Origin: Sulfurimonas paralvinellae
GTDB taxonomy: Bacteria; Campylobacterota; Campylobacteria; Campylobacterales; Sulfurimonadaceae
Direction of reading: 5' to 3'
NCBI RefSeq assembly: GCF_014905135.1
Contig: NZ_CP041406.1
Span: 1,674,001-1,738,000, forward strand
Length of the DNA stretch: 64,000 bases
Under the pieces are notes generated by a model. The model saw only the letters and a program-made list of their open reading frames with translations, was not told where the DNA came from and did not search any database. Position 1 is the first letter of the stretch. The number at the start of each line of letters is the position of its first letter. A program made the translations under genes and the position numbers. Of the stretch, positions 10,730 to 17,563 are shown piece by piece.

Positions 10730-11456
10730 TACTGTCCTCCTGAACTGTGTTGCGTGAAACGACACTTTGCGTGTCTGGAATCAAAAAGGCATACCAGGAT
10801 GCTGTGCCGTCACCCTCGAACATAGAACGATACCAAGGAGTATTCGCACGTTCAACTTCATCCCAGTTTATCCATTTCTCCGGCATTATTGCACGGTAAT
10901 AAGCTGCTGCTTTTGGCTTGTCTATACGATCATAAAGAGACGCAATGGTCTCATTTAAAACAGCATCTGCGAGATAAAGATTTGTAAGCATGCTGTCTAC
11001 CAAAGAGTAGTACATAGAGCGTGGATACTTTTGTTTGAATGATTTTGCTTCACTGATAGCATCGGAAATAAGCACCTGGTCACGGCGTGGATTCGGCAGC
11101 GCCATGTATTTCGCTTTTATCTTTAAAAACTCTGCAAACTCCCGCTCGTTTTCATTGGCATAACGCTTGACATACTCATTCAAAAAATGTTCAGTTAAAA
11201 GATACTCTTCATTGTGCATATGAGCAATGGCAAGAATCATCGTAGCTTCCGGCAGCAACGGCGAACCGATATGTTCACCCTGCAGTGAAGAATAGTAATC
11301 ATCTGCTTTGTCAATATCGCCATCGGAGATAGACTGAATGATCTTGCCATACCAATAGGCAGCCGGTTTGTTATACTCGTCAACCTCTTTGGAGCATGAG
11401 CTAAATATGAGTAGAGAGATAACTGCAAATGTAAAAATTTTTAAACTTTTATTCAT
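10716..11456 (-). CDS. bamD: Outer membrane assembly lipoprotein BamD
   Basis: A 246-residue lipoprotein. The signal peptide ends in the lipobox LLIFSSC (Cys21), followed by TPR-like helical repeats (AAYWYGKIIQSISDGDIDKA, then PEATMILAIAHMHNEEY, then a YVKRYANE repeat). BamD is the essential TPR lipoprotein of the BAM complex that inserts beta-barrels into the outer membrane. Length and repeat layout fit the family. The gene is directly upstream of lon and overlaps it by 14 bases, so envelope assembly and protein quality control are probably co-transcribed here. AGGAA precedes the start. The C-terminal region beyond about 200 is less typical. Confidence 0.82.
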   Translation of the reverse strand: MNKSLKIFTFAVISLLIFSSCSKEVDEYNKPAAYWYGKIIQSISDGDIDKADDYYSSLQGEHIGSPLLPEATMILAIAHMHNEEYLLTEHFLNEYVKRYANENEREFAEFLKIKAKYMALPNPRRDQVLISDAISEAKSFKQKYPRSMYYSLVDSMLTNLYLADAVLNETIASLYDRIDKPKAAAYYRAIMPEKWINWDEVERANTPWYRSMFEGDGTASWYAFLIPDTQSVVSRNTVQEDSNETK

Positions 11457-11487
11457 AAAATAGATTCCTGTTGTTAATTAGAATGTT

Positions 11488-11493
11488 ATTTTA
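11488..11493 (-). promoter_or_regulatory. Candidate -10 of the bamD-lon operon
   Basis: On the minus strand TTTTGGATAAAATAAC contains TAAAAT with a nearby TGG, 31 bases before the bamD ATG. The tRNA-Phe gene lies 95 bases upstream on the same strand, so read-through from the tRNA promoter is the alternative. Confidence 0.35.
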
Positions 11494-11551
11494 TCCAAAA
11501 GATATATAATGAGGATTAAATTGCTGAGTAATAATGATTTTTAAAAGGAAG

Positions 11552-11627
11552 TGGTGGCCTGTCTCGGAATCGAACCAAGGACACAGTGATTTTCAGTCAC
11601 TTGCTCTACCGACTGAGCTAACAGGCC
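11552..11627 (-). tRNA. tRNA-Phe (anticodon GAA)
   Basis: The minus strand folds into a complete 76-base cloverleaf. It has a 7-bp acceptor stem GGCCTGT/ACAGGCC, D-loop AGTCGGTA, a 5-bp anticodon stem AGTGA/TCACT, loop CTGAAAA with anticodon GAA, a T-arm with TTCGATT, discriminator A, and an encoded CCA end. It lies on the bamD-lon strand just upstream of bamD. Confidence 0.97.
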
Positions 11628-11644
11628 ATCTTTAAGAGGAGAGA

Positions 11645-11650
11645 ATTTTA
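11645..11650 (-). promoter_or_regulatory. Candidate -10 of tRNA-Phe
   Basis: TAAAAT (inside CTGTAAAATTC on the minus strand) is 17 bases before the tRNA 5' end. No clear -35 is seen. Confidence 0.35.
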
Positions 11651-11783
11651 CAGTTTTGTATCTAAAAAAGAGCTTACACCCCTTAAAATAATACTTTTAG
11701 AAAAAATAAAACATAAAAAAACATGAAATCTTTGTCAAAAAAACTCTATTTTCATATATTTTCAGAACAATCTGTAAAAAAAG

Positions 11784-11792
11784 TGCTACAAT
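11784..11792 (+). promoter_or_regulatory. Extended -10 promoter of the surface protein/pilin module
   Basis: TGcTACAAT is an extended -10 element about 84 bases before the ATG of the 1252-residue protein. The predicted start of transcription is near 11799, so the upstream ORF at 11826 and the A9G10 tract lie inside the leader RNA. The rest of 11628-11875 is AT-rich with nothing else recognised. Confidence 0.5.
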
Positions 11793-11825
11793 AGAGTAAG
11801 GACAAGTAACATTAGTGTTGAGCGG

Positions 11826-11879
11826 ATGTTTGGTGCACTAATTTTACTTAAAAAAAAAGGGGGGGGGGATCTGCCATGA
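11826..11879 (+). promoter_or_regulatory. Upstream ORF crossing the poly-A/poly-G tract
   Basis: ATG at 11826 opens a 17-codon frame (MFGALILLKKKGGGDLP) preceded by GAGCGG. It reads through the whole A9G10 tract and stops at TGA 11877-11879, which overlaps the ATG of the large downstream gene as ATGA. At the present length of ten G this gives a coupled stop/start. One G more, or two fewer, would fuse the two frames. One G fewer would make the upstream frame run on past the start out of frame. The frame arithmetic is read directly; regulation is inference. Confidence 0.4.
11850..11868 (+). repeat. A9G10 homopolymer tract (candidate phase-variation site)
   Basis: Nine A followed by ten G, ending seven bases before the start codon at 11876. 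Poly-G tracts of this length are the classic slipped-strand contingency loci of Campylobacter and Helicobacter. Here the G run also sits where the ribosome-binding site should be, so its length changes both the spacing and the frame of the upstream ORF. It is the only long G tract in the window. Confidence 0.85.
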
Positions 11880-14800
11880 AGTCATTTTCAAAAAAAACAA
11901 TTTTTTTATTATTACTTATCATAATACCCACATCATCAATTGCTGCAACAGCATGTACTGGAACAACAGCTACCTGTTCTTATGATATCACAGCTGCAGA
12001 ATTGGCCTCACAAATAGAAGGCTCTGGTATCACTATTACGAATCCAGTTATTACCCATGGTTCTGGTTCCCAAGTAGGTATTTTCTCAAATGGAATTAAT
12101 GGATCCAATTTAGAAATTGATGAAGGAATCACACTTACCTGTATGAGTGTTGAAGAATCCTTTACAACTAATAGCTCATGGAGTACTTCAATTACTGCTT
12201 CAGACACATATACTGATGCTGACTTAACCGGTATTGACGATAAAGCAATATATAACCCTGTAATCTTTGAGTTTGATGTTACATTAGATGAGAATACACG
12301 TCTTTTATTGATTGATTATCAATTTGCTTCTGAAGAATACAATGAGTATGTAGGTTCCCAATATAATGATGCTTTTGGCTTTTTTATCTCAGGTGGTGAT
12401 TTAAACCAAACATACAATATAGCAAGAGTCGTTGACAATCAGACATATGTAACCATCAATGATATTAACAATTATGACACTGTCACTTTAAATAATGTCA
12501 ATAACGGAACTGCTGGACAATATGGGACACAAGCAAATGTCAATACAGCCAATACAGCTTATTATATAGACAATGATCAAAACAACCAAGGAGGAACTTC
12601 TCCAGTTCTTGTAGAATATGATGGTCTTACACATACACTACATGCTACGCTTGACAACCTTACACCGGGAGAGACCTATCATTTTAAAATGGCTATCGCT
12701 GATACTGCCGATGCATATTGGGATACTGGTGTATTCATTAACAAAATACGTGGTCTACGGGCACCAAAGCTTTGTTATGACTATGCTTATAAACAAAATG
12801 AAAGATATATCACTGCAGAATATAATGATAGTGTTGGTCCCTATATTGATACTGATGTATCTACAAGCGAACCACTTGAAATTGCAATGTACTTTAAAAA
12901 TCAAGAAGAATCTGATTTAGCAGTAAGCAATGTCAAACTCAATGTACTTGATATCAATACATCACAGGCAGCATATTCATCAGAGTCTGTATACGTTACA
13001 CAACCAGGTAGTGTCTACCCAGAACATATAGCAGATAATACTTTAGGTATGACTACAACTAATAGTGAAATACTTAACATACCAATCGATTCTTTTGATA
13101 GTTTTGAAAACTTCTATACATATTTTTCTATTAACCCTCAAACATCTCACTTGACAATGCCTATAGTCGCTAGACTTGATTACAATATCACTATTCCACT
13201 TTCAGCTACACAAAGCGTAACTCTTCCGCGCTCAAGTCTCATTGACCAGGATATTCCAATTTGTGGAGGCGGAGCATCTAGTTATAAACCTGCATACGGT
13301 CTATTTAATATCATAGAAAATGGGTTAAATCCTGGAAAAAGTGCAGGTGACAATAACCTGTTCTATAATTTAAATACTCAGGTTGTCAACAGAACTCCAA
13401 ATATATCTGTTGTTTCTATGGATGAGAACAATCTAGATACCTTAAAAGACATCAATGGTTCTGTGATAGTGGCTGTTGACATGGTGGACTTAGGAGCCTT
13501 TCATGATACAGTCGCTTCTTGTAACGAAGAGAGTAATGCTATTTCCAAGAGAGTATGGACAACAATTGACAATGCTGCACAGGCAGCTGTTTCCTTACTT
13601 CCTGGAGAAGCCCGTGTAAATGCCACATTTAGAGTGAGCTACAATGCTGACGGCAACAACACTGGAGCTTTACATCTCATACCTGCTGCGACAGATGGTA
13701 GTGGAAATGTTATATCTTGGAATGTAGCTAATTTCCCATCACTGGCGGGCAACAATTGTTTACAAGACATGGATGGCAATCCAAATAATGTAGATACAGT
13801 TCCTTCCTGGTGTAATAATGCAGGGACAGCTGCTGCATCAGCTATGGACTTTGATGAACTCGTGGCATGTCAACAGTGTATCTATGGATATGATACGAAA
13901 TTTATCTGTTCACGAGACAATTTTGCTGTTCGTCCTGAAGCTTTTCATATACAGATAAAAGATCAAAACCAAACTGTAACAACTGCAAATGAACCACTGA
14001 TTGGCACGAATACATCGACATCCCCTCTTAAATTAGCAGCAGGTTATAACTATATTTTAGAGATAAATGCTACAAATCATCTTGACAACAATGCATCACG
14101 AGGTTATTATACAGGCATTGATACAGCATATATTTGGTCTCCGCCAGTAGGAAAAGATATAAGCGGATGTAATGACGACAACAACTATACTGCCAATATC
14201 AATTTTGGCAATGGAATTGCCGACCAAAACACAAGTCTTAATCAAGTAGGTGCGTATAGTTTCAATATAAGTGACACGAAATGGACAGCAGTGGATAGTG
14301 ACCTTAATTATTTAATGGATACAAATAGGACTAATCATTATCTTGCACCTTATTCAGCCCACTTTTTAACGGGAACTGATTGTGTTCTCAATAGCGATTT
14401 TGTAGATCAGTCAGCTGTAAATGACAATCTTACTGGATGCGATATTAACAGTACACATTCTACGCATATAAGTAGTACACAGACAATTACATATAACGAT
14501 TTAAATATCAGTTTCTATCCTTATAAATTCGACATTAATGGATCAGTTACAGGCAATCCTATTCTTCCAACGGTAGGAATAAATTATCAAGCAGTAGCCC
14601 CAATCCATGCATTTGTCTATATGTCCGATATAAACAACAGTGCAGATGAAAACATGTCTTATCATCTCAACGGATTTATATCCGCAGCAGGCTACAATGA
14701 TGTATTAGTAGGTAATTTTGTAGAAAAATGTTATGCAACTCCATTAACAATCACTATAAAAACAACAAATAGAGATCTTAATGATACGGAGGGTAATCAT

Positions 14801-15634
14801 GTAACGTTTAGAGCAAGATTTCACGATGTAAACAAAACAACCACTAAACCTATCACAAATTTAGATGTCAATGTAAGTGACACTGCACCTAATGTTGCAG
14901 AGTTTCAATTTGATACAAACGAAAGTCATTTTTATAAAACATCAAATGGTAGCATAAGGACATATCTCAACCTCAATTATGATAGAAATGTAACCAAAAC
15001 GGTCAATCCAAAAGCAATAATTTTTCTCTCTTATGATGTAAATGATACCAATATAAGCCATGCTTTCCATGCAGATCTGCTTAATAATAAAACTTCTGAA
15101 ATGAAAAAGGATCTCAACACTACGCTACCTATTAAATTTTATTATGGTCGTGCTCACGCAGGAAAACAAAGATTTGAAGTACCGACAGACAATCCGTATA
15201 CTACAAATATTTATTATGAAATCTACTGTTATAATGCAGGCTGTAATCTTGCACTGATCCCTAGTATCCAGCATGTTGATGATATTCGCTGGTATCAAAA
15301 TACATTACATGTGACGACAAATGATGGTAATGTCAGTAGTCCGCTAACAGAGCAGGGAGCGTTCAATGTAACATCAAGCATCCCTGCCAACGGAACGAAT
15401 ACAACAACGGCAAATCTTAACTATAATGGAGCTCTTGGTTATCCATACACAACCACTATGGAAATCAATGCGTCCAATTGGCTAATTTATAACGAAAACG
15501 ATGCAAATGCGCAAACAAACCCTTTTCAAGTAGAATTTAACAATGCTAATAGCAGCTGGAGTGGTGAGAGAGAAACAACCACAACCACAAAAGCATCCAA
15601 TGTTTCAAAAACGAACAGGAGAACAATGTGGTAA
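11876..15634 (+). CDS. Large exported surface protein with choice-of-anchor L domain
   Basis: 1252 residues with a signal peptide (MKSFSKKTIFLLLLIIIP, cleavage near residue 25). Residues about 30-290 match the choice-of-anchor L pattern (SQVGIFSNG, DEGITLTC, FQFASEEYNEYVG-like, DAFGFFISGG, ETYHFKMAIAD). Residues about 420-640 have more beta-rich segments. A Cys cluster CQQC-IYGYDTKFIC near 660-680 precedes a FAVRPEAF segment resembling DUF6701/MshQ-type proteins. The second half is Thr/Asn/Asp-rich beta sequence. About 25 extended bacterial N-glycosylation sequons (D/E-X-N-X-S/T) are present, mostly after residue 680. No C-terminal sorting signal or TM helix is seen. Translation overlaps the next prepilin gene by seven bases, which suggests a pilus-associated adhesin. 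Function otherwise unknown. Confidence 0.72.
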   Translation: MKSFSKKTIFLLLLIIIPTSSIAATACTGTTATCSYDITAAELASQIEGSGITITNPVITHGSGSQVGIFSNGINGSNLEIDEGITLTCMSVEESFTTNSSWSTSITASDTYTDADLTGIDDKAIYNPVIFEFDVTLDENTRLLLIDYQFASEEYNEYVGSQYNDAFGFFISGGDLNQTYNIARVVDNQTYVTINDINNYDTVTLNNVNNGTAGQYGTQANVNTANTAYYIDNDQNNQGGTSPVLVEYDGLTHTLHATLDNLTPGETYHFKMAIADTADAYWDTGVFINKIRGLRAPKLCYDYAYKQNERYITAEYNDSVGPYIDTDVSTSEPLEIAMYFKNQEESDLAVSNVKLNVLDINTSQAAYSSESVYVTQPGSVYPEHIADNTLGMTTTNSEILNIPIDSFDSFENFYTYFSINPQTSHLTMPIVARLDYNITIPLSATQSVTLPRSSLIDQDIPICGGGASSYKPAYGLFNIIENGLNPGKSAGDNNLFYNLNTQVVNRTPNISVVSMDENNLDTLKDINGSVIVAVDMVDLGAFHDTVASCNEESNAISKRVWTTIDNAAQAAVSLLPGEARVNATFRVSYNADGNNTGALHLIPAATDGSGNVISWNVANFPSLAGNNCLQDMDGNPNNVDTVPSWCNNAGTAAASAMDFDELVACQQCIYGYDTKFICSRDNFAVRPEAFHIQIKDQNQTVTTANEPLIGTNTSTSPLKLAAGYNYILEINATNHLDNNASRGYYTGIDTAYIWSPPVGKDISGCNDDNNYTANINFGNGIADQNTSLNQVGAYSFNISDTKWTAVDSDLNYLMDTNRTNHYLAPYSAHFLTGTDCVLNSDFVDQSAVNDNLTGCDINSTHSTHISSTQTITYNDLNISFYPYKFDINGSVTGNPILPTVGINYQAVAPIHAFVYMSDINNSADENMSYHLNGFISAAGYNDVLVGNFVEKCYATPLTITIKTTNRDLNDTEGNHVTFRARFHDVNKTTTKPITNLDVNVSDTAPNVAEFQFDTNESHFYKTSNGSIRTYLNLNYDRNVTKTVNPKAIIFLSYDVNDTNISHAFHADLLNNKTSEMKKDLNTTLPIKFYYGRAHAGKQRFEVPTDNPYTTNIYYEIYCYNAGCNLALIPSIQHVDDIRWYQNTLHVTTNDGNVSSPLTEQGAFNVTSSIPANGTNTTTANLNYNGALGYPYTTTMEINASNWLIYNENDANAQTNPFQVEFNNANSSWSGERETTTTTKASNVSKTNRRTMW

Positions 15635-16227
15635 AAAGATATGCATTTACGATGATCGAGCTAATATTTGCTATTGTCATCATATCAATTGCCATTGTCT
15701 CTCTGCCTGTTATGACAAACACGACGCAAAAAGGGGTCGAGCAGAATATAGTACAAGAAGCCATCTTCGCTGCTTCTGCGCAGCTAATGGGAATCATGTC
15801 CGGATATTGGGATGAACTTTCTATGCAAGACAATGCTCTTAGTAATCTTTCAAGAGTCATCAATATAGGCGGTGATTGCGATGCAGTTACACGAATGAGA
15901 CCAGGACATATTGCTCAGCCTTTTCATCGCCGCTGTTTAAATAATGATGTAAACCCTGCAAACTTAAGTGCAACAGGCGGCAATTTTTATTCACTTGATG
16001 ATGCTGTTGCTGCTGTCAATGGGACAGCTGATATATTTGATAATCCAAATGCATCTGATACAGGGTATAAAGATACTTATACAAGTACAGCAACAATTTC
16101 AAGAACAAACGACTTAAAAAAGATTGCTGTCTCAATTCAAGACAGCAATGGCAATACAATTACAAAACTTATCAGTTACAGTGCAAATATCGGTGAGCCG
16201 GAATACTATAAAAGGACTATGCAATGA
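15628..16227 (+). CDS. Type IV prepilin-like protein (minor pilin/pseudopilin)
   Basis: A 199-residue protein with a class III (prepilin peptidase) signal: VKRYA|FTMIEL, where the mature protein starts at Phe with Glu at position 5. A hydrophobic helix IFAIVIISIAIVSLPV follows. The rest is a globular domain with two Cys. The start is GTG at 15628, supported by AGGAG seven bases upstream; it overlaps the stop of the surface protein. It is probably a minor pilin or pseudopilin of a type IV pilus or type II-like system. No assembly ATPase, platform protein or peptidase is in the window. It overlaps the next prepilin gene by four bases. Confidence 0.85.
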   Translation: MVKRYAFTMIELIFAIVIISIAIVSLPVMTNTTQKGVEQNIVQEAIFAASAQLMGIMSGYWDELSMQDNALSNLSRVINIGGDCDAVTRMRPGHIAQPFHRRCLNNDVNPANLSATGGNFYSLDDAVAAVNGTADIFDNPNASDTGYKDTYTSTATISRTNDLKKIAVSIQDSNGNTITKLISYSANIGEPEYYKRTMQ

Positions 16228-17123
16228 TGCGCCGTTATGCTTTTACAATGATAGAGCTTATATTTGTTATTGTGGTAATGGGAATATTGGGAAAATACGG
16301 AGTTGAATTCCTTGCACAGGCATATCATAACTATATATTTGCACAGGTAAACAATCAACTACAGGCAGATGCTGAAATGGCAGTTGAAACGATTGCTGCA
16401 AGATTGCAGTACCGTATAAAAGCATCTGTTATTGGTCGCAAATCAAGTGACAATACATTTGTAGCTATCCAGAGTGCAAGCGGAACACAGTACAATATAT
16501 TAGAGTGGGTAGGGAGTGATGAAGAGAGCTTTCGAGGGAAAACAGCTCCTTATTGGAGCGGAATTATAGACTTAGATGACTCCAATGCTACCTATCTGGC
16601 TTCTCCTGGAACGAACACTGCCGAGATAAACAATATAATTGATGCTCTTGCACATAATAGTGGTACCGATATTAATGACAGTGCCATCTACTTTGTCGGT
16701 TCCAACAGTAACAGCCAACAATGGGGATGGACGATTCCACATGCTGCTTTTATTGATCAAAGCAATGCTATGCATCCAATACAGACAGATGCAAACACTT
16801 CTGTTCTCATTCCAAAAGTCGGTTCATTCAGCGGAGAAGATGTTTATGAATATTATAAACTTGCATGGACTGCTTATGCAGTTGGTATAAAAGATTATGA
16901 TGCTGCTACAAACAAGGGCACTCTTACACTTTGGTATGATTATCAGCCATGGGAAGGAGATGATTATACAAAAGCAACAACACAATCCTCTGTTATCATG
17001 GAAAATGTAAGTACATTCCAATTTCGTGCAGTAGGGTCTGTCATAAAAATTCAAGTCTGTGTAAAATCAGATTTAATAGAGGATGAAAAGTATTCATTAT
17101 GCAAAGAAAAAACAGTTTTTTAA
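16224..17123 (+). CDS. Type IV prepilin-like protein, PilW/GspJ-like
   Basis: 299 residues with the prepilin signal MMRRYA|FTMIEL followed by the helix IFVIVVMGILGKYGVEFL. The size and the later domain (many aromatic residues, C-terminal pair of Cys in KIQVCVKSDLIEDEKYSLC) fit the larger minor pilins of the PilW/GspJ kind. Three extended N-glycosylation sequons are visible (DSNAT, DINDS, DANTS). It starts within ATGATG overlapping the stop of the previous gene, and its end overlaps the next gene by 25 bases, so the three pilin genes are one translational unit with the surface protein. Confidence 0.8.
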   Translation: MMRRYAFTMIELIFVIVVMGILGKYGVEFLAQAYHNYIFAQVNNQLQADAEMAVETIAARLQYRIKASVIGRKSSDNTFVAIQSASGTQYNILEWVGSDEESFRGKTAPYWSGIIDLDDSNATYLASPGTNTAEINNIIDALAHNSGTDINDSAIYFVGSNSNSQQWGWTIPHAAFIDQSNAMHPIQTDANTSVLIPKVGSFSGEDVYEYYKLAWTAYAVGIKDYDAATNKGTLTLWYDYQPWEGDDYTKATTQSSVIMENVSTFQFRAVGSVIKIQVCVKSDLIEDEKYSLCKEKTVF

Positions 17124-17563
17124 GACATTCAGCTCATAAAAGAAGATCGGGAATAGCTATGATAATGGCTATTATGGTAATTGTTATTATTGCTACCATT
17201 ATGGCACTAGCCTTAGCGCTTACATCACAAACGACTAAAAGGACAACAGATATCTATCTTCATGAACAAGCATCTCTCTATTCAAAAGCAGCAGCAGAAT
17301 TAGCACTTTTGAACATTGCAAAAAACGGTTGTTCTAATAATTACAATCATACTTTTGGAGATGCAGGAGAAATCAAATATGATGCAAATGTAACCATGCA
17401 ATATATCTATACTGTTCCAATTGGAGGATGCACCCAATATATTACCATTCATACTCCTGAAGAAAGTGGCTCTGTCATGATGGATATAGCAGTAACACTG
17501 CATGACCCTTCAATAACAAGCGAACCTATCCGCTATTTTAGAAGAACTATCCAAAAATTATAA
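17099..17563 (+). CDS. PilX-like minor pilin
   Basis: A 154-residue protein. A basic N-terminus (to about residue 17) precedes SGIAMIMAIMVIVIIAT and a further hydrophobic stretch, then a small domain with two Cys. The pattern resembles PilX N-terminal domains: the hydrophobic helix follows a Gly but lacks the Glu5 of ordinary pilins. That is also true of GspK/PilX-type tip subunits. One sequon, DANVT, is seen. It is last in the accessory operon; no hairpin terminator was found after it. Confidence 0.7.
   Translation: MQRKNSFLRHSAHKRRSGIAMIMAIMVIVIIATIMALALALTSQTTKRTTDIYLHEQASLYSKAAAELALLNIAKNGCSNNYNHTFGDAGEIKYDANVTMQYIYTVPIGGCTQYITIHTPEESGSVMMDIAVTLHDPSITSEPIRYFRRTIQKL

Follow-up and report, generated by a model that had tools for sequence, protein, structure and literature searches.

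The 64,000-nucleotide stretch of the Sulfurimonas paralvinellae genome analyzed here (contig NZ_CP041406.1, positions 1,674,001 to 1,738,000; hereafter the window) contains an open reading frame (ORF; 11876-15634, + strand) for a 1252-residue protein with 27 extended sequons, which are copies of the D/E-X-N-X-S/T motif (X not Pro) recognized by the bacterial oligosaccharyltransferase PglB. We consider it likely that this protein is a PglB-glycosylated, pilus-associated secreted adhesin, whose C-terminal half is kept loaded with PglB acceptor sites and is sheathed in glycan. The excess of sites, their exact register, their occurrence and maintenance throughout the group, the PglB gene in the genome and the operon in which the gene lies were all observed directly.

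The first-pass annotation of this DNA put the number of sites at about 25, with about two expected from composition, and described them as concentrated after residue 680 and spaced every 15-30 residues. Our count of 27 compares with 2.7 sites after residue shuffling (standard deviation 1.6; maximum 11 in 5000 shuffles), and the described distribution was confirmed: 21 sites lie in residues 681-1252, compared with 1.3 in shuffled sequences (maximum 6 of 3000), while residues 1-680 hold 6 sites compared with 1.3 expected. Beyond residue 680 the median gap between sites is 20.5 residues, and the C-terminal 572 residues contain one site per 27 residues. Since Pro is excluded at both X positions by the motif definition, its absence from the sites is evidence neither way. 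The protein is rich in Asn (11.7%) and Thr (10.8%), and plain N-X-S/T occurs 45 times where 26 are expected. The five-residue form holds this entire excess, the 18 non-acidic N-X-S/T motifs being slightly below expectation. Control motifs in the same protein gave 4 versus 2.7 expected for the reversed S/T-X-N-X-D/E, 1 versus 2.6 for D/E-X-X-N-X-S/T, 4 versus 2.7 for D/E-N-X-S/T, 2 versus 3.0 for N-X-N-X-S/T and 3 versus 1.5 for D/E-X-D-X-S/T; D/E-X-N-X-X-S/T was mildly elevated (7 versus 2.7). The five other reading frames of the same DNA contain no extended sequon at all. This rules out a composition effect, because the excess is confined to the five-residue form, the controls are near chance and the other frames contain none.

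The same excess was found in homologues. In the target and 19 syntenic orthologues of the genus we counted 352 sites where 55.9 were expected (a second copy in G036, locus L055, gave no match, and G021 is represented by an 848-residue piece of a broken frame). The control ratios in these 20 proteins were 0.80 for S/T-X-N-X-D/E, 1.23 for D/E-X-X-N-X-S/T, 1.39 for D/E-N-X-S/T and 1.38 for D/E-X-D-X-S/T, and 1.72 and 1.75 for the two controls that share the D/E-X-N core, D/E-X-N-X-X-S/T and D/E-X-N-S/T. The sequons are thus conserved beyond the Asp/Asn-rich composition of the family. A further 39 genus homologues (matches below 300 residues excluded) contain 622 sites versus 110.7 expected, and 39 class-wide proteins from 38 loci (matches below 250 residues excluded; L111 and L112 gave no usable match) contain 710 versus 101.8. 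Pooled, 98 homologues from ten families carry 1684 sites versus 267.3, and 84 of the 98 are individually enriched at p<=0.01; L032 and L003, which are on the same contig as G007 (L037), were counted once, and both copies of G062 are included. By family the ratios were 14.1 (f16), 9.5 (f4), 9.1 (f10), 7.8 (f20), 7.7 (f18), 6.1 (f6), 6.1 (f1) and 5.2 (f7). There was no strong excess in f11 (1.0; 6 proteins) and f14 (2.0; 1 protein), which we read as Campylobacteraceae and Helicobacteraceae, respectively.

Some individual members deserve mention. The homologue in G109 (L097 567-12752, - strand) has 4061 residues and 67 extended sequons versus 9.9 expected, G062 carries two near-identical tandem copies with 19 sequons each (L084 788-5890 and 6053-11365), and in G021 a TAA breaks the frame and leaves only the C-terminal piece (L047 2630-5176, - strand). 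Residue preferences were examined in the 89 proteins of the enriched lineages, with f11, f14, G336 and G359 held apart. The acid at position -2 is enriched only where N-X-S/T follows, Asp is favoured over Glu there (1315:350, against a background of 2.1:1), Ala is the most favoured residue at +1 (2.4-fold) and Thr slightly exceeds Ser. These preferences are close to DQNAT, the published optimum of PglB (PMC4894442).

We also asked whether individual positions are retained. The number of sites aligned in the same column as one of the 27 target sites was 23 in G007 (75% identity), 16 in G033 (62%) and 11 in G031 (35%), although the G031 protein carries 26 sites altogether. Across 323 genus pairs (320 random pairs plus three chosen by name, the exclusion of G336 and G359 slightly favouring the sequons), site retention was 22%, 30% and 39% at 20-30, 30-40 and 40-55% identity, compared with 1-7%, 5-13% and 9-19% for controls lacking the D/E-X-N core; the two controls that contain this core were retained at 12-30%. 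Above 55% identity (4 pairs), 71% of sequons were kept versus 9-67% for the controls, which are nearly as well kept in this range. At 20-55% identity sites thus outlast divergence better than the non-core controls do, yet many of them change position without a fall in their overall number. In the C-terminal alignment of 20 proteins, 192 sites are distributed over 58 columns, of which 25 are used only once and the most widely shared are N999 (17 proteins), N926 (13), N1198 (11) and N877 (10). Some sites thus form a conserved core, and the others drift. Among 86 proteins (f11, f14, G336, G359 and proteins of up to 900 residues left out), sites are densest at a distance of 200-400 residues from the C-terminus (3.2 per 100 residues, 13.8-fold), and the enrichment drops to 1.7-1.9-fold beyond 1000 residues, where the interchangeable heads lie.

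The 2.08-megabase genome (two contigs) encodes a single STT3 protein of 732 residues (C1:1385258-1387456). It aligns end to end with Campylobacter lari PglB (5ogl, E=1.4e-160) and contains all three domains above cut-off (PF02516, 128.6 bits; PF21436, 181.3; PF18527, 47.4), which identifies it as a PglB-type oligosaccharyltransferase. In the alignment with 5ogl and in the motif columns of ten PglBs, it has equivalents of D56, R147, D154/D156, TxxE, R331, WWDYG and M..I, those other than R331 being known catalytic motifs. R331 of the C. lari enzyme contacts the -2 acid (PMC4894442); according to the same paper, this arginine alone does not fix acceptor specificity, as relaxed enzymes retain it. 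A second cluster at 1.120-1.139 megabases (G000:C1:1120427-1139497; L079, L080) encodes one relative each of PglF (E=1.8e-127 to 5bju) and of PglK (E=4.3e-178 to 5c73). Also encoded there are a sugar-phosphate transferase of the WecA type, two glycosyltransferases of family GT4 and a DegT aminotransferase. The first-pass interpretation of a heavily N-glycosylated surface protein thus gains support from the presence of PglB and from sequons conserved beyond composition, with the glycan itself predicted from sequence.

To place the excess in the context of the proteome, about a quarter of the genome was sampled (the window, the PglB locus and twenty 20-kilobase stretches), which yielded 450 ORFs, some of them mechanical false ones. 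The other 449 ORFs contain 85 sites versus 97 expected; the 157 with a crude N-terminal hydrophobic stretch contain 37 versus 34.0, and the 292 without one contain 48 versus 63.3. The next-highest ORF, with 3 sites, belongs to the operon as well, being its second prepilin-like gene. The features of the protein and its surroundings in the window are as follows.

11876-15634, + strand: putative exported surface protein, 1252 residues, 27 extended sequons (ORF and motif count)
11876-11947, + strand: probable Sec signal peptide, residues 1-24 (by eye from sequence)
11999-12745, + strand: choice-of-anchor L domain (NF038133), residues 42-290 (E=1.5e-51, 175 bits, cut-off 27)
13916-15631, + strand: sequon-dense C-terminal half, residues 681-1252, 21 sites (motif count)
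14483-15631, + strand: conserved C-terminal domain, residues 870-1252 (alignment A1, of 20 proteins)
15628-16227, + strand: first prepilin-like gene (N_methyl 21.6 bits versus Pfam cut-off 21.2; TIGR02532 20.0 versus 16.3)
16224-17123, + strand: second prepilin-like gene (TIGR02532 18.6 versus 16.3; under the Pfam cut-off)
17099-17563, + strand: GspK/PilX-like minor pseudopilin (GspK 27.9 bits, below cut-off 130)
11850-11868, + strand: A9-G10 tract at the Shine-Dalgarno position, 7 bases 5' of the ATG (sequence)

The gene for the big protein and the three pilin-like genes overlap by a few bases and are followed by the ribosome hibernation factor gene hpf, while a tRNA gene, bamD and lon lie on the other side. 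Of the 19 genus stretches that contain the big protein, 18 are long enough to show the gene order, and in all of them it is big protein, prepilin, prepilin, GspK-like; the remaining stretch, L044, ends within the second prepilin gene. Most stretches also contain hpf and, where reached, bamD. The pilin-like proteins are themselves enriched in sequons. The first has none in its window copy, and its 20 orthologous ORFs contain 43 versus 5.8 expected; the second carries DSNAT, DINDS and DANTS (54 versus 6.4 in 19 orthologues), and the GspK-like protein carries DANVT (32 versus 2.4 in 18 orthologues). For the neighbouring cytoplasmic proteins in the orthologue set the counts were 0 versus 3.2 for HPF and 1 versus 2.6 for Lon; BamD, which is also exported, has 8 versus 2.5. 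The third pilin-like gene gave no N_methyl or prepilin motif match over cut-off, and the name GspK was not adopted for it, as 27.9 bits is far from the equivalog cut-off of 130; we refer to it as GspK-like only.

The first-pass annotation described the big protein as exported, and its N-terminus (MKSFSKK, a hydrophobic stretch, then SIAA) resembles a signal peptide by eye and by a crude script, which is consistent with that description. The choice-of-anchor L region forms a variable head module with few sequons and was found in only 5 of 23 homologues. Other homologues carry immunoglobulin (Ig), cadherin, Calx-beta or DUF11 domains in this position, and the heads are interchangeable. DUF6701 (PF20419) was absent among the matches of the 1252-residue protein up to E=10 and matched one of the 20 orthologous C-terminal domains (8.1e-8), so that DUF6701/MshQ was dropped as a family name. 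A search of the PDB with the 1252-residue protein found no relative at E<=1, and a search of the plasmid collection found none either.

The C-terminal domain is found mostly in genomes with STT3. Among 298 genomes of the class, the domain was present in 131 and STT3 in 210, with the domain in 129 of the 210 STT3-positive and 2 of the 88 STT3-negative genomes (overlap counted by eye). Among 98 genomes of the genus, STT3 was present in 92 and the domain in 88, including three of the six STT3-negative genomes. These three are G346, which is negative by profile and retains part of PglB at the edge of a contig, G007, which has 27 sites and is a bin 93% complete and 8% contaminated, and G336. PglB seems to be nearly necessary, and not sufficient, for the excess.

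Several observations weigh against the proposal that the C-terminal half is kept loaded for PglB. The co-occurrence of domain and STT3 is confounded by phylogeny, for which reason no p-value was drawn from it. The six f11 homologues from Campylobacteraceae have 10 sites versus 10.4 expected in genomes with PglB. G359, with an intact PglB, has 2 sites versus 2.3, and G365, G360, G396 and G308 reach just 2-2.5-fold; in G143 no PglB was found, yet there are 10 sites versus 2.7. Of 12 genomes examined, just one more contained a close PglK (61% identity), the rest having ATP-binding cassette relatives of about 26-30% identity or none at threshold. No PglC-type transferase (PF02397) was found in the genome, which makes the WecA-type enzyme the probable initiator of glycan assembly. 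An AlphaFold2 model of residues 680-1252, built with one relative, had a predicted local distance difference test (pLDDT) score of 26.9 and was not used.

On the tree, the low members fall in several separate places (5 changes for 6 rows). A change in PglB specificity was considered as their cause and rejected, the checked motif columns being intact in G359, G365, G360, G126, G215 and G046. Three of the four g11 proteins in Campylobacteraceae have 0 sites, and in two of the four Q/N at -2 looks raised (7 versus 2.5 and 5 versus 2.1; few sites). The homologue in G336 (L082 647-4411, + strand) is full length and Asn-rich, with 3 sequons versus 2.3; its composition is odd and its branch long. The seven homologues nearest to it, with similarity scores of 0.45-0.48 (identity over aligned residues, scaled down when fewer than 1000 align), have 11-27 sites, and the other 42 members of its group of 43 are enriched. 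No STT3 or PglB match was found in this genome (same genus, 99% complete). We nevertheless do not regard G336 as a natural PglB knock-out, because its contig breaks off inside or immediately behind the glycosyltransferase gene that relatives have just before pglB, and pglB may lie in the assembly gap; the absence of an excess in G359, with its intact pglB, further undercuts such a reading.

The sequence of events that we propose is as follows. The 1252-residue protein would be exported by Sec, and a lipid-linked glycan would be built by the PglF, WecA-like, GT4 and PglK proteins of the cluster at 1.120-1.139 megabases. PglB in the inner membrane would then transfer this glycan on the periplasmic side to up to 27 asparagines, and the glycosylated protein would join a minor-pilin complex made of the products of the next three genes. 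It could thus be displayed as the adhesin of a type 4 filament, its N-terminal head bare and exchangeable and the scaffold beneath it sheathed in glycan; the sheath would protect the exposed scaffold from proteases or stiffen it. In this scheme we infer site occupancy, glycan structure, pilus display and the function of the sheath. A broader version, for and against which we find the case evenly balanced, is that in Campylobacterota outside Campylobacteraceae and Helicobacteraceae N-glycosylation has this adhesin, together with its minor pilins, as its main and dedicated client. Selection would keep the number of C-terminal glycans high while positions drift, and the bare exchangeable head would sit on a stalk as dense in sites as archaeal S-layers, with up to 67 sites in the 4061-residue homologue.

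It could be argued that D-X-N-X-S/T is a structural or metal-binding repeat of a beta-rich C-terminal fold, with Asp/Asn turns or calcium loops, and is unrelated to glycosylation. The abundance of Asn and Thr, the conservation of the C-terminal domain with widely shared columns such as N999 (17 of 20) and the mild rise of D/E-X-N-X-X-S/T (1.7-fold) would fit this idea. We nonetheless think it very unlikely: Campylobacteraceae homologues with the same domain and operon and 9-10% Asn show no excess, D/E-X-D-X-S/T and S/T-X-N-X-D/E are near chance (1.38- and 0.80-fold), sites in the 20 orthologues occupy 58 different columns, 25 of them single-use, and the adjoining pilin-like proteins, which belong to another family, share the excess.

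The sequons may instead have been selected for PglB in the past or in relatives, with occupancy in this strain low or partial and restricted to a few conserved sites (such as N999, N926, N1198). The turnover of many sites would agree with this, as would the preference of PglB for flexible, accessible sites. In Helicobacter pullorum, too, six occupied sites were found in five proteins (PMC6025236). Neutral relics would decay, yet 21 sites remain in the last 572 residues, and retention exceeds that of the controls at 20-55% identity, which makes this option rather unlikely. To a similar degree we doubt that a type II-like secretion pseudopilus handles these proteins as substrates and releases them instead of their being displayed on a pilus, with glycosylation marking or protecting the secreted product. 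The GspK-like fourth gene of the operon and the varying heads (Ig, cadherin, Calx-beta, DUF11) could be understood in this way; the conserved position of the big protein's gene close to three minor prepilin-like genes throughout the genus, and a C-terminus of the DUF6701 type in 1 of 20 members, as in the pilus protein MshQ, favour association with a filament instead.

The first-pass annotation also called the protein phase-variable. A long homopolymer tract is indeed present at the gene, the A9-G10 tract being the sole run of at least 7 G or C in the window, and here the agreement ends, as it is neither within the frame nor kept in relatives. At the tract position relatives have GGGG or AGGAG, and G runs near the start reach at most 5 in 93 related loci. 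As the tract precedes the ATG, slippage is unable to alter the reading frame; it may tune translation, and phase variation is unsupported. Tens of bases 5' of the start, homologues have a TGAGCC(C)...TGCA element (e.g. L037, L041, L042, L120). TGAGCC was found upstream in 31 of the 93 homologue loci versus a background of 4%, the window (11817-11868) having TGAGCGG instead, and in some loci the element could pair with the GGGG ribosome-binding site. A scan of 11400-12000 against Rfam gave the tRNA alone above threshold.

The system resembles the N-glycosylation systems of Campylobacter jejuni and H. pullorum in its D/E-X-N-X-S/T acceptor rule and its homologous PglB, PglK and PglF. In those species many proteins are modified, more than 60 in C. 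jejuni and five, at six sites, in H. pullorum (PMC6025236), whereas here 27 sites lie in one protein and the rest of the sampled proteome is at chance. The same paper cites a study (Mills et al. 2016) in which PglBs of vent relatives were already tested. In site density the protein is closer to the S-layer glycoproteins of Sulfolobus acidocaldarius, which have more than 30 N-glycosylation sites, one per 30-40 residues (PMC4287180), compared with one per 27 in the C-terminal 572 residues here. Those are lattice proteins modified by the archaeal oligosaccharyltransferase AglB, with occupancy partly confirmed, whereas the present sites are known from sequence alone. The big protein also resembles MshQ, a large protein of the mannose-sensitive haemagglutinin (MSHA) pilus that is encoded beside minor pilins and ends in a DUF6701-type domain; the 1252-residue protein itself gave no DUF6701 match up to E=10, and one of the 20 orthologues did match. 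Residues 42-290 make it a clear member of the choice-of-anchor L proteins (NF038133), a domain that most of its homologues lack. In the open-access literature, covered through titles and abstract openings and with most subscription journals outside it, no such sequon-dense pilus-linked bacterial protein was described. N-glycosylation by PglB is known, and a single pilus-linked protein with a site density like that of archaeal S-layers appears to be new.

The direct effects of bacterial general N-glycosylation are described as unresolved (PMC7683400). In the sampled genome the sequon excess is confined to one operon, and many genera maintain it. This suggests that pilus-linked surface proteins are a main reason why free-living Campylobacter relatives keep PglB. 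If our proposal is correct, these proteins would correspond in bacteria to the dense glycan coats known from archaeal S-layers, and they would provide a natural multi-site acceptor for glycoengineering.

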